Source: Verrucomicrobiota bacterium
GTDB lineage: Bacteria; Verrucomicrobiota; Verrucomicrobiia; Opitutales; Opitutaceae
DNA: 64,000 nt
Direction of reading: 5' to 3'
Assembly (NCBI GenBank): GCA_016222805.1
Contig: JACRQG010000009.1
Location: 87,006 to 151,005 of the forward strand
Shown: positions 31,270 through 35,440 of the stretch, piece after piece
Layout of the letters: the number at the start of each line of letters is the position of its first letter
Numbering within the stretch: the stretch's first letter is position 1
Program-made: the position numbers and the translations under genes
The notes under the pieces: model-generated
Told to the model about the DNA's origin: nothing
The model's input: only the letters and a program-made list of their open reading frames with translations
Databases searched by the model: none

Positions 31270-31284
31270 GCCGCCGAAGGCGGC
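31270..31284 (-). terminator. Short hairpin at the BNR_4 stop codon
   Basis: GCCGCC/GGCGGC with a 3-nt loop directly follows the TAG of the 31284-32660 gene, then GCGTTCCTTTCC on the minus strand. The T run is poor, so it is a weak terminator at best. Confidence 0.3.
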
Positions 31285-32660
31285 TATTTCACCCGTTCCG
31301 GCGGGGCCGAGTCGACGTTGGCCGGAAACGTGTAGGGCATCCGGAAGACCTTCTCCCCGGTGGAGTCGGCGAAATACAGCCGCGACGGACTCGGGCGATC
31401 CGGATCGCCATCCGCCCAAAACGCAAAGAACGGATCCCGGGCGTCGCGCGGACGGCGCGCGTAGCTGTGATTGAACTCGCTGCCTTGAGTGACCGAGCGG
31501 CGTCGCGTCCACGTGCGTCCCTCATCGCGACTGGCCCAGAGCACCATCTCCCCGCCGGCTCCCCACTTCTGCGGCCCGACGTCTGTCGGCGCGAGGACGA
31601 GCCACTCGTCGCGCTGCACGTAGAGGCTGCCCATATCGTAGTTGTGATCCGAGTTGGCGATGGTCGCGAAGTGCCAACGGCCACCCTTCCAATGCGCGAC
31701 CGTCCATTCGCGTTCACCGCCAGCCGGCCCGGGCTTGAAGTCGCGGGAGAGCACGTAGAGCAGGATGGGATGGCCCGCGGCGTCAAAGTTCAGGTCGCAG
31801 GTGTAGAGCAGCCGGCCTTCCGCCGCGTAGTCGCGCACGAGCGCCGGATTGCGGATGTCCTTCAATGGCAGATTCAGGGGCGTGCCCTCCGCCGTGGTCC
31901 AGGTGGCGCCAAAGTCCGTCGTCTGCACGTAGTAGAGGTTGGTCCGCTTGTCGACGTTGCCACCGGGATGGTAGTTGAAGAAGGAGGCCACCTTGCCGTC
32001 GCGCGCTCCGCTGGTCTGGTAGTGGCCGCCGAAGCCGGCGAGCTTGTGCGTGGCGCTCCAGGTCCTGCCGTCGGCACTCGTTTCCCAGTAAAGCTCCCGG
32101 CCCTTCGTGTATTGCGTGAACAGGTGCAGGAAGCCGCGGCCCGGCACATGCCAGGGTTGCGGGTAGGTGATGACGCGCTGATCGACCCGCTCGAAACGTG
32201 AGGGATCGTAGGGAGCCACGCTGCGGTAGATGAATCCGGGGCGCGCGTTGGCGCGGCCGCTGACGAAAACCCACAGGAAGCCCTGGGGATCGAGGTTCAC
32301 GCTCGGATTGTCATGCGGGTCGTTGACCGGCCGCTTGTCGTGCACCACCACCGGACGCGACAGCAGGCCGGTCCGGTGATCGTAGCTGCCGATCAGGCAG
32401 AGCAACGCGCGGGAGCCGTCGGGCGAACCGCCGTAGACGAAAAACGTCTTGTCGACGGCCGGCGCGTAGACCGCGAGCGGGTTGTGGTTGGCCGTGTAGG
32501 TGCCAAGGCCGCCGGAGTACTTGTCGCCGTATTCGGACTTCTGACCCAAGGTGAACCAGATGCCGCGGTAGCCCTCAGCCCGCGGAAACGGGGCGATTTC
32601 CGCCGCGCCGGCGGCGACCGAAATCAAAAGGAGGAGGCAAAAGGCAAGGCGGAGGTTCAT
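31284..32660 (-). CDS. BNR_4 repeat-containing exported protein (paralogue A)
   Basis: A 458-aa protein with a signal peptide (MNLRLAFCLLLLISVAAGAA). The BNR_4 domain begins GYRGIWFTLGQKSEYGDKYSGGLGTYTANHNPLAVY and includes YGGSPDGSR, NDPHDNPSVNLDPQGFLWVF and several Asp boxes (SADGRTW, SRDEGRTW). The fold is a beta-propeller related to sialidases and some polysaccharide lyases. The homologue at 33861-35321 shares the whole architecture, so the two arose by duplication or parallel acquisition. The REP array lies between them. Confidence 0.85.
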   Translation of the reverse strand: MNLRLAFCLLLLISVAAGAAEIAPFPRAEGYRGIWFTLGQKSEYGDKYSGGLGTYTANHNPLAVYAPAVDKTFFVYGGSPDGSRALLCLIGSYDHRTGLLSRPVVVHDKRPVNDPHDNPSVNLDPQGFLWVFVSGRANARPGFIYRSVAPYDPSRFERVDQRVITYPQPWHVPGRGFLHLFTQYTKGRELYWETSADGRTWSATHKLAGFGGHYQTSGARDGKVASFFNYHPGGNVDKRTNLYYVQTTDFGATWTTAEGTPLNLPLKDIRNPALVRDYAAEGRLLYTCDLNFDAAGHPILLYVLSRDFKPGPAGGEREWTVAHWKGGRWHFATIANSDHNYDMGSLYVQRDEWLVLAPTDVGPQKWGAGGEMVLWASRDEGRTWTRRRSVTQGSEFNHSYARRPRDARDPFFAFWADGDPDRPSPSRLYFADSTGEKVFRMPYTFPANVDSAPPERVK

Positions 32661-32755
32661 GACGCAGGGCAGCAAGTTTCATCCTGAGCGTCCAGCGTCG
32701 GCGACGCTTTTCCGGGAGTGCTTCGATCCGCCGTACCAGGGACCACAACCCCGTG

Positions 32756-32824
32756 GTCGTCGGTCGCGGTGAGGCCGGCACCGCGGGATCGACGCACGCC
32801 GCCGGGGTCACCGACCCCGGCTAC
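32756..32824 (+). repeat. REP/BIME unit 1 (69 bp, degenerate left hairpin)
   Basis: The same length as the other units. The right hairpin (GCCGGGGTC / GACCCCGGC, loop ACC) and terminal CTAC are intact. The left end is GTCG in place of GTAG and the left stem is weakened (TCGGTC opposite GGCCGGC). It is the oldest-looking unit and the one nearest the BNR_4 paralogue A. Confidence 0.85.
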
Positions 32825-32869
32825 ATCTAGGTAGCGTTGCTCCGCTCGTATGGAAAACTAGCATCCGTT

Positions 32870-32938
32870 GTAGCCGGCCGCGGTGAGGCCGGCACCGTGA
32901 GATCGATACCTCCCGCCGGGGTCACCGACCCCGGCTAC
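32870..32938 (+). repeat. REP/BIME unit 2 (69 bp)
   Basis: GTAG opens a 7-bp hairpin GCCGGCC/GGCCGGC (7-nt loop). Then a linker ACCGTGAGATCGATACCTCC leads to a 9-bp hairpin GCCGGGGTC/GACCCCGGC (3-nt loop) closing in CTAC. The two outward tetranucleotides are inverted copies of GTAG, the site recognised by RAYT transposases in other bacteria. It is separated from unit 1 by 45 nt. Confidence 0.95.
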
Positions 32939-32983
32939 ATTGCGTATACGTCGTTTTCGGCCGTTTCGAAATTCGCAACTGAT

Positions 32984-33021
32984 GTAGCCGGCCGCGGTGA
33001 GGCCGGTTTGGTGGGATCGAC
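32984..33021 (+). repeat. Left half of a REP/BIME unit, upstream of the RAYT gene
   Basis: GTAG plus the left hairpin and GATCGA of the linker are present; the sequence then departs from the 69-bp consensus and the RAYT gene follows 85 bp later. It is spaced 45 nt from unit 2, in phase with the array. The missing right half is found at 33596-33619, on the other side of the gene. Confidence 0.9.
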
Positions 33022-33105
33022 CGGCAAACGTCGAGACCAACTATACCTCGTTTCGGGTAGCAGCCGTGCTTGGAGCCGCGGTCTCATGCGCCAGATGAAC
33101 AAGCC

Positions 33106-33570
33106 ATGCCGTCCCATCGCCACCTCCGGCGGCTTTCCGTCGTTTGGGAAAAGCACCCCGTCTACTTCGTCACCATCTGCGTACACCGCCGACGCCCCCT
33201 ACTCGCGATCCCTTCCGTCCATGCCATCTTGAAAACCGAATGGCTGCACTTGGCCGACCACCACGGCTGGGCAATCGGACGCTACGTCGTTCTGCCTGAC
33301 CACGTGCATTTCTTCGCAGCCCCGATGCGGGAGTCGGCGAAACCGCTGGCGACCACGATCGGCCGATGGAAAGAGTGGACTTCCAAGCGCATGGTGCGGG
33401 AGATCGGGATCACACCGCCCGTCTGGCAGCCCGAGTTCTTCGACCACCTGTTGCGTTCTGGAGAATCCCGATCGGAGAAATGGAACTACGTGAAGGCGAA
33501 TCCTGTGCGAGCCGGTCTGGTTTCGGACTCCGACGCGTGGCCGTTCGCGGGGGCGATTCACTTCGATTAG
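33106..33570 (+). CDS. REP-associated tyrosine transposase (RAYT, Y1/HUH family)
   Basis: A 154-aa protein. The HUH metal-binding motif is HVH in YVVLPDHVHFFAAP, and the catalytic tyrosine is in EKWNYVKANPVRAGLV, the conserved RAYT tail. YFVTICVHRRRPLL near the N-terminus is also typical. Members nick single-stranded REP hairpins next to a GTAG-like tetranucleotide and are domesticated IS200/IS605 relatives. All motifs are intact, so it may be active. It lies between the two halves of a REP unit. ATG 33106 is used; an in-frame TTG at 33070 is an alternative. Confidence 0.93.
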   Translation: MPSHRHLRRLSVVWEKHPVYFVTICVHRRRPLLAIPSVHAILKTEWLHLADHHGWAIGRYVVLPDHVHFFAAPMRESAKPLATTIGRWKEWTSKRMVREIGITPPVWQPEFFDHLLRSGESRSEKWNYVKANPVRAGLVSDSDAWPFAGAIHFD

Positions 33571-33595
33571 CGCCGGTGGTCAGACGTACCGCCCT

Positions 33596-33619
33596 GCCGG
33601 GGTCACCGACCCCGGCTAC
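33596..33619 (+). repeat. Right half of a REP/BIME unit, downstream of the RAYT gene
   Basis: The right hairpin GCCGGGGTC/GACCCCGGC with CTAC is intact, 25 bp after the RAYT stop. With 32984-33021 it makes one BIME split by the transposase gene. Confidence 0.9.
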
Positions 33620-33662
33620 ATCGGGTCGCATCGCTTCGGCCGTTTTAAGACACGCAACTGTT

Positions 33663-33731
33663 GTAGCCGGCCGCGGCGAGGCCGGCTTCGTGAGATCGAT
33701 ACCTCCCGCCGGGGTCACCGACCCCGGCTAC
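33663..33731 (+). repeat. REP/BIME unit 4 (69 bp)
   Basis: A full GTAG...CTAC unit, nearly identical to unit 2 (linker TTCGTGAGATCGATACCTCC). It is separated by 43 nt from the preceding half unit. Confidence 0.95.
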
Positions 33732-33775
33732 ATCGAGATAGTGTCGAACCCTCCGTGTCGAAATGGTCACCCGTT

Positions 33776-33844
33776 GTAGCCGGCCACGGTGAGGCCGGCA
33801 CCGCGGGATCGACGCACCTCGCCGGGGTCGCCGACCCCGGCTAC
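33776..33844 (+). repeat. REP/BIME unit 5 (69 bp)
   Basis: A full GTAG...CTAC unit with loop changes (CACGGTGA in the left loop region, GCC in the right) and the linker ACCGCGGGATCGACGCACCT, which is shared with unit 1. The spacer to unit 4 is 44 nt. It ends 17 bp before the stop codon of the BNR_4 paralogue B. Confidence 0.95.
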
Positions 33845-33860: not shown

Positions 33861-35321
33861 CTACCGTACTTCTTCCGGCGTGGCGGTGTCTCCGGTCATT
33901 CGCTGCGGGAGGCGGAACACCCGGCCGTCCCTGGTCGCAAAGTAGAGGGCCGAAGGCGTCGCCTCCAGCGGCGAACCGTCCGCCCACAGCGCATAAAAGT
34001 CCGGATGCGCGTTCACCGGCTTGCGGGCATAGGTGTGGTTGTAGCGCGAGTTTTGGGTCAACTGTTTCACCCGTTGCCACGTCGCTCCTTGATCCCGGCT
34101 GGTCCACATCACCATGTCGCCGCCGGTGCCCCACGGTTGCGGGCCGGGCGCCGTCGGCGCAATCACCCGCCAGGTGCCGTCGGCCTCGATGTAGAGCGAC
34201 CCGTGGTCGTAGTTGTGGTCCGAGGTCGTGAAGGCCCGATACTCCCATGCGGTTCCCGTCCAGCGTGCGGTGTACCACTGGAAAGGTCCGGACTCCGGCC
34301 CGGGATTAAACCCCTTCGAGGTCAGGTACAGCACCACCGGCCGGTGGTCGGCAGTGAAGGCGATGTCCTTCAGGTAGACGCTGAGATTCTCTGCGCGATA
34401 GTCGCGCACCAGCGCCGGATTCCGCGCGTCCCGCAGCGGCGGCTCCAGGCGCTGGCCGGCGGCGTTGGTCCAGGTGGCGCCGCCATCCCGCGTCTCCGCA
34501 TAGTAGAGGTTGGTCCGGTAGTTGAGGCCCTTGCCCTCGCGCCCCTGGGCCGGGTGAAGGTCGAACGCAGTCGCGACGCGGTCGGTGTCGCCATCGCGGA
34601 AAGACACCTGGTAGTCGCCCATTTCGAGGTGCGCCAGCAACTGCGGCGCGCTCCAGGTGCGGCCGTCCGCGGAGGTCTTCCAGTTGAGCGTGCGCTCGCC
34701 CTTCACGTAGAGCGTGTGAAGGAAGAGAAACCGCTGTGACTGCGGCAGGTACCAGGGCTGCGTGTAGGAGAAATTGGTCTTCTCGATCAGCTCCCACTCG
34801 GAGATGTCGTAGGGACGCCGCGAACGGTGAAGGTACGACGGACGCCCGGTACCATGGGCGGAGGAAAAGACCCAGAGGTGCCCGGCGGCATCGACGGAGA
34901 GGGTCGGATTGTCGTGGGCATCCTCCGTGCGCTTCTGGAGCAGCCGCACCGGCCGCGGCACCGTGCCGGTGACGTGGTCGTAATAGGACACGAGGTGCTG
35001 CAGCTCGTCCTGCCGCTCGGAGATGTTCCCGGCCGATCCGCCGAAGACGAAGAACGTCTTCCGCTGCGACGCGACGTAGACGGCAATCGGCACGTGCTGC
35101 TGCGGATAGGTCGCAAAGCCGCCGCTGTACTTGTAGCGGTGTTCGCTCTTCAACGGCTGGTTCATGTACCAGATGCCGCGGTAGCCGTCGGCCACCTGGG
35201 GTGTGAGCTCGTCGGGTGGCTTGGGAGCAGCCTTGGTCCCGGGCGTTTGCGGCGTGGACGCGGCGGCGAGGAGGGCCGGGAGGACGCAGAGCAACCAGAG
35301 CGGACGGAGGACAGGAGGCAT
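33861..35321 (-). CDS. BNR_4 repeat-containing exported protein (paralogue B)
   Basis: A 486-aa protein with a signal peptide (LWLLCVLPALLAAAS) and a Pro/Lys-rich linker, then GYRGIWYMNQPLKSEHRYKYSGG, the BNR_4 opening. It shares AHDNPTLSVDAAGHLWVFSS, TSADGRTW, RDARNPALVRDY and TSDHNYDHGSLY with paralogue A. The presumed role is binding or cleavage of extracellular glycans; no catalytic residues can be assigned with confidence. It is the upstream member of the minus-strand group that leads into the LtaS-like gene, although the REP array intervenes. Confidence 0.85.
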   Translation of the reverse strand: MPPVLRPLWLLCVLPALLAAASTPQTPGTKAAPKPPDELTPQVADGYRGIWYMNQPLKSEHRYKYSGGFATYPQQHVPIAVYVASQRKTFFVFGGSAGNISERQDELQHLVSYYDHVTGTVPRPVRLLQKRTEDAHDNPTLSVDAAGHLWVFSSAHGTGRPSYLHRSRRPYDISEWELIEKTNFSYTQPWYLPQSQRFLFLHTLYVKGERTLNWKTSADGRTWSAPQLLAHLEMGDYQVSFRDGDTDRVATAFDLHPAQGREGKGLNYRTNLYYAETRDGGATWTNAAGQRLEPPLRDARNPALVRDYRAENLSVYLKDIAFTADHRPVVLYLTSKGFNPGPESGPFQWYTARWTGTAWEYRAFTTSDHNYDHGSLYIEADGTWRVIAPTAPGPQPWGTGGDMVMWTSRDQGATWQRVKQLTQNSRYNHTYARKPVNAHPDFYALWADGSPLEATPSALYFATRDGRVFRLPQRMTGDTATPEEVR

Positions 35322-35341: not shown

Positions 35342-35440
35342 GTAGGCGGGGTGACCTTACCCCGCAACGGCGGAGGGAGGGGAAAAACGCGCGGGAGGGA
35401 GACCTTCCAGGGATGCGCGGGACGAGGTCGTCCCGCCTAC
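35342..35440 (+). repeat. REP/BIME element of a second family (99 bp)
   Basis: GTAG, then hairpin GCGGGGT/ACCCCGC (6-nt loop); 50 nt of purine-rich linker; hairpin GCGGGACG/CGTCCCGC (AGGT loop) and CTAC. Stem lengths, the AGGT loop and the outer tetranucleotides are the same as in the 49-bp cores at 23739, 24404 and 38756, but the linker is longer. It lies between the divergent 5' end of BNR_4 paralogue B and the 3' end of the TonB receptor. Confidence 0.75.

Follow-up and report, generated by a model that had tools for sequence, protein, structure and literature searches.

The locus at 32756-33844 of the window (the whole stretch of 64,000 nucleotides analysed here) is, with a probability that we place at about nine in ten, a REPtron, in which the gene of a REP-associated tyrosine transposase (RAYT) lies among its own REPINs, arranged in tandem. 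RAYTs are HuH, single-tyrosine endonucleases of single-stranded DNA, related to the transposases of the IS200/IS605 family. Directly supported here are the anatomy of the array, the intactness of the gene, the protein family and predicted fold, the dispersal of whole units and the way in which RAYT clades and REP types go together. REPtrons are already known as a kind, and the locus adds a further one that is in itself ordinary. REPINs of the same class also appear to have been taken up by an unrelated mobile element, as described in the final section.

The RAYT gene and the array around it

The RAYT (TnpA-REP) gene occupies 33106-33570 on the plus strand and encodes a protein of 154 aa, intact from the ATG at 33106, with an HuH motif (HVH, residues 66-68) and a tyrosine at position 128; the intact gene with both motifs that the original prediction had described was thereby borne out. 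The protein scored 95.6 bits against the NCBIfam model NF047646 (REP_Tyr_transpos), above the cut-off of 80, which places it in the RAYT family, and 20.4 bits against the Pfam IS200 model PF01797, under the cut-off of 23. When PDB sequences were searched with phmmer, 4er8 (E. coli TnpA-REP) was the sole match at E<=0.01, with an E-value of 6.4e-10. An AlphaFold2 model, for which this protein was aligned with those of 15 of the 21 named-homologue loci (16 sequences in all), reached a pLDDT of 90.9; Foldseek returned 4er8 as the top match to the model (E 1.5e-9), followed by the ISDra2 and IS608 transposases, and structural alignment to 4er8 gave 24% protein identity. H66, H68 and Y128 were invariant in all 16 aligned sequences, the arrangement of an HuH enzyme with a single tyrosine (HuH-Y1), and Tyr128 is, as judged by alignment, the catalytic tyrosine. 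One pair of RAYT genes, from genomes G012 and G026, gave a dN/dS of 0.22.

Four complete 69-bp units and one split unit surround the intact gene, as had been predicted. The complete units, U1 (32756-32824), U2 (32870-32938), U4 (33663-33731) and U5 (33776-33844), all lie on the plus strand in direct orientation and are separated by linkers of 43-45 nt. Each unit has a spacer between two hairpins, the first with GTAG and the second with a CTAC end, and all three parts measure 23 nt; in U2 the left hairpin spans 32870-32892 and the right 32916-32938. The original claim that every unit ends in GTAG or CTAC fails at one end, the degenerate left end of U1, which reads GTCG and has the stem foot TCGG. 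The left half of the split unit, U3 (32984-33021, plus strand), comprises a hairpin at 32984-33006 and part of the spacer; its right half is a hairpin at 33597-33619, listed on the plus strand with its REP in minus orientation. The RAYT gene is thus flanked by inverted GTAG REPs, at 32984-33006 (+) and 33597-33619 (-), and the array as a whole shows the tandem REPs, alternating orientation and regular spacing of a BIME. The names RAYT, REP/BIME and REPtron, all used in the original prediction, proved right by the NF047646 score together with the sequence match to 4er8 and the fold.

When U2 was folded as single-stranded DNA, z-scores of -3.07 and -2.69 were obtained for the plus and minus strands, respectively, and just 1 of 200 shuffles equalled or exceeded the stability of the plus strand. 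The right hairpin (23 nt, with GTAG, 8-bp arms and a 3-nt loop) had a z-score of -3.64; the left was weaker (z -2.11, with 7 of 200 shuffles folding equally well), and its pair 7 is mismatched in most copies.

The locus resembles the gammaproteobacterial REPtrons of E. coli (Ec), S. maltophilia (Sm) and Marinomonas (Mb) in having an HuH-Y1 TnpA-REP gene bordered by inverted copies of GTAG hairpins, and in combining local arrays with dispersed REP copies; it differs from them in its host, which the named RAYT homologues suggest to be in or close to Opitutaceae, in its CCGG stem foot and in a protein 24% identical to 4er8. The right hairpin has the size and shape of REP-Sm, which was studied in vitro (PMC8266576). 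According to the same report, related TnpA-REP proteins bind and cleave REP as single-stranded DNA, the cut in vitro falling at a CT that adjoins GTAG hairpins. By analogy, the RAYT protein of this locus would bind single-stranded REP hairpins via the GTAG foot and the stem-loop and would nick beside them, and REPINs would be copied or rejoined to other sites by the RAYT at a low rate. The array beside the gene would have grown through local re-insertion or tandem duplication, and that the gene now has one half of a unit on either side would be happenstance.

Similar systems have been described in other genomes. In Pseudomonas fluorescens SBW25, ordered clusters of near-identical REPINs that include flanking sequence are reported (PMC3116915); the dispersed unit there, as here, is two inverted REPs plus a spacer, whereas one unit of the present cluster, unlike those described in that paper, contains the RAYT gene. 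Nor are REPs new to the phylum: a 2013 paper (PMC3733652) describes the verrucomicrobial Opitutus terrae as "highly enriched in GTAG repeats" and reports several GTAG-REP families in it, a multiplicity that, by that description, is shared with the genome analysed here.

REP types and their RAYTs in this genome and its relatives

The repeats of the window's type, designated class 1, are dispersed throughout the genome to which the window belongs. The sequence GTAGCCGGNNNNGGTGAGGCCGG was matched exactly at 31 places in the genome (7.9 Mb) and its reversed pattern at none, so chance is excluded as a source of the repeats. The class-1 REP pattern GTAGCCGG-N11-CCGG yielded 255 matches against 14 for the reversed control, and cognate REPs are therefore abundant, as in a REPtron. 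A query comprising a unit and its linker gave 53 genome matches, most of which covered query positions 1-70 and ended before the linker; in most of the 53, then, both hairpins and the spacer are dispersed together, which is the behaviour of a REPIN. The best 30 unit copies were fetched, of which 18 (3 of them from this array) passed a two-hairpin filter and 12 failed. Across the 18 copies, the two types of hairpin within a unit are told apart by swaps between G-C and C-G at the fifth and sixth stem pairs. Covariation of the stems was set aside as independent evidence of compensatory change, because an exchange of these swaps between copies may reflect orientation alone.

Five Y1-transposase matches were found in the same genome: the window's gene (on contig C8) and those on C38, C51, C34 and C46. 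The C8, C38 and C51 RAYTs each lie within an array of their own, built from a different GTAG repeat, and no GTAG repeat array was present in the 1.5-kb flanks of the C34 and C46 genes. Genome matches numbered 255 for the C8 type, 144 (control 2) for the C51 type and 9 (control 0) for the C38 type, 5 of the last 9 lying at the C38 gene itself. Where a species has several REP families, its REPtrons are reported to be repeat-specific (PMC3733652). A REPIN of the C51-type family was also observed at 35342-35440 on the plus strand (GTAG-GCGGG hairpins at 35342-35365 and 35417-35440), 1.5 kb away from the array; the C51 RAYT itself is surrounded by this type.

To what extent REP type follows the RAYT was assessed over 70 RAYT loci taken from 130 match rows (the stronger ones and some weaker). 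REPs were detected on both sides of the gene at 43 of the 70; the 27 dropped include the clade-1 loci of G009, G012 and G026, and the detector, which needs two hairpins sharing 8 nt, misses degenerate REPs (a hairpin at L043, for example, went uncounted). Over the 43 loci, RAYT identity and REP distance were negatively correlated (Mantel rho -0.461; 0 of 2000 permutations). The REP distance was <=0.25 in 10 of 10 locus pairs at 60-70% protein identity; among the 382 pairs whose proteins are 20-30% identical, 5% stayed within that distance. The evidence for a joint evolution of gene and hairpins is thus good. RAYT/REP pairs with differing hairpins abound in the relatives searched (many RAYTs with differing REP sequences were seen at loci L037-L105) and offer a natural set for learning how RAYTs recognise REPs; the reading of REPs by RAYTs was tested with three enzymes in PMC8266576. 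Seven RAYT loci had GTGG feet in place of GTAG (G001c, G003c, G011c, G017b, G017c, G019 and G021c).

Of the 57 genomes searched with the window's RAYT protein, 39, its own included, gave a match at E<=1e-3. Full-length clade-1 copies, at 51-64% identity, are carried by 7 of the 36 family relatives, the nearest being that of G029 (64%). It had been proposed that an excess of class-1 REPs would be confined to genomes with this RAYT clade. The outcome mostly favours the link: the seven had excesses of 27.7, 17.5, 11.8, 11.0, 3.5, 2.0 and 0.2 class-1 REPs per megabase, against a median of 0.0 in the other 29 family relatives (Mann-Whitney p 9e-4 with G013 left out; p 4e-3 with G013 counted as a carrier, its RAYT copy being partial, 59% identical and without REP excess, at 5 matches against 9 in the control). 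The strict form of the proposal did not hold. G033 is a carrier (51% RAYT) but has 1 class-1 match and other hairpins, and G015 had 111 matches of the GTAGCCGG hairpin pattern (control 13; loci L217-L246), while no RAYT at E<=1e-5 was found in its assembly, given as 97% complete. The hairpins listed for G015 mostly belong to another subtype (GGGGCATCTTGCCCC, GGGGAATCCTTCCCC), in which the upper stem and loop differ.

The other two REP types showed a similar looseness. C51-type REPs were frequent in G030 (32 matches, control 0) and G018 (26, control 2), and no RAYT of 50% identity to that of C51 was seen among the best matches compared in these two genomes; C38-type REPs were frequent in G029 (49), G018 (18) and G016 (16), and here too the best matches compared included no RAYT of 50% identity to that of C38. 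Conversely, G004 and G025 contain a C51-like RAYT and have 0 and 2 matches of the C51-type REP. REPINs are reported to occur in E. coli genomes without a RAYT (PMC8049555).

History of the array

An alternative account of the array, which we regard as possible at distinctly less than even odds, is that the split unit is a parent transposon of the order hairpin-gene-hairpin, and that internal deletion of the gene gave rise to the 69-bp units, comparable to the MITEs of an IS200/IS605-type element. The inner flank of the left half of U3 (the first 15 nt past the hairpin) resembles the spacers of the other units, at best in 11 of 15 positions, a score equalled by 6 of 5000 random 15-mers of the 64-kb window, and U2 and U4, which flank the gene on either side, are 96% identical. 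The closest named homologues, L106 and L107 (60% identity), each have a single detected REP per side within 500 bp, facing outward, and four cases in which the 3' end of a rayt became part of a BIME spacer are described by Nunvar (2010). On the right, however, the 12 nt inside the hairpin of U3 gave no clear match to the spacers, their score being reached by 175 of 2000 random stretches, and the split is consequently without a defined edge on this side. With the insertion sequences IS608 and ISDra2 the locus shares the fold, the catalytic residues and a coding sequence between hairpins. It departs from IS200/IS605 elements in its 22.2 bits against the NCBIfam IS200 model NF033573, whose cut-off is 55, and in lacking the several whole-element copies of such elements: among the four other NF047646 matches of the genome (two above cut-off) and its genes at large, none exceeded 43% identity to the window's RAYT, and there is therefore no second copy of the gene.

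The phase of the gene relative to its repeats also counts against descent from a hairpin-gene-hairpin parent. Of the 43 loci, 13 have nearest REPs that face outward, as they do here; in 16 these REPs face inward, and in 14 both point in one direction. In the homologues of G001 and G035 the gene is flanked by complete units, and in that of G029 the order is AB-gene-B. Because phase is mixed in this manner and differs between close homologues, a gene within a split unit was rejected as a special architecture, and the split unit is to be seen as one state among several. The embedding of the gene inside one unit, which the original prediction had singled out as a notable layout, loses its distinction for the further reason that the flanking of RAYT genes by two inverted REPs is a published rule (PMC2817692).

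It is unlikely, in our estimation, that the RAYT gene was inserted later into an existing REPIN array. Such an event would account for the splitting of U3 with part of the left spacer retained, and the linkers on either side of U3 are 71% alike, where the maximum over 500 shuffles was 67%. REPtrons, however, reportedly do not transpose as a unit (PMC6006769), and since 43 of the 70 loci have detected REPs to the left and right of the gene, there is no obvious REP-free donor. That the repeats are unrelated intergenic palindromes (terminators or RNA elements) lying beside a transposase gene by chance is highly improbable, for while the units are indeed palindromes located between coding genes, the RAYTs on C8, C38 and C51 are each set amid a GTAG repeat of their own, and across the 43 loci similar RAYTs go with similar REPs.

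Similarity within the array tends to be highest between parts placed symmetrically about the gene (U2-U4 96%, U1-U5 90%, linker pairs L2-L3 and L1-L4 71%), with all units in direct orientation. The symmetry is weak, U2-U5 also being 90% alike and the pairs L0-L1 and L1-L2 reaching 67%, equal to the shuffled maximum; the pattern hints faintly at a likeness of units and linkers that simple block duplication would not explain. The array is situated between two paralogous BNR-type proteins, at 31284-32675 and 33861-35321, both on the minus strand and 46% identical to each other over 492 columns; they had no match at E<=1e-3 in the flanks (up to 2 kb) of 90 RAYT loci, L037-L126, and shared synteny was therefore rejected within these flanks.

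A TIR element that carries a REPIN

A 94-nt query taken around some class-1 REPs identified 27 dispersed copies in the same genome at >=93% identity (L127-L153). Each copy is an element of 108 bp bounded by terminal inverted repeats (TIRs) of 23 bp, such as that at G000:C36:114664-114771, and the core of the element is a class-1 REPIN. After two copies (L139 and L151) were left out for indels, the 9-nt flanks matched with <=1 mismatch in 14 of 25 aligned copies, as against 0.17% of 600 cross-pairings; at 8 or 10 nt, matching flanks were found in just 3 and 1 of the 25, respectively.

The REPIN may have escaped its own transposase: we consider it somewhat more probable than not that it was captured between the 23-bp TIRs and that the resulting 108-bp element, which leaves 9-bp target-site duplications, is spread by an unrelated transposase, probably of DDE type. 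The TIRs together with the duplication signature suggest that the element was probably moved by such an unrelated, DDE-type enzyme. The 27 copies contain 34 of the 255 class-1 REP matches, and another transposase therefore probably spreads the REPIN as well. If so, the REP population of this genome has two independent routes of dispersal, and a different transposon could supply substrates for a RAYT that persist after the RAYT itself is gone; the element serves as a warning that REP abundance alone is no measure of RAYT activity. Among the titles and abstracts listed by the literature searches, no report of a REPIN inside such a TIR element was recognised, the nearest precedent found being TIRs adjoining degenerate REPs in Pseudomonas (PMC3733652). 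Among 51 TIR matches, none was a REPIN-free element marking an empty site: 50 coincide with matches of the REPIN-containing query, and the remaining one, C49:410917, also has a REP hairpin.
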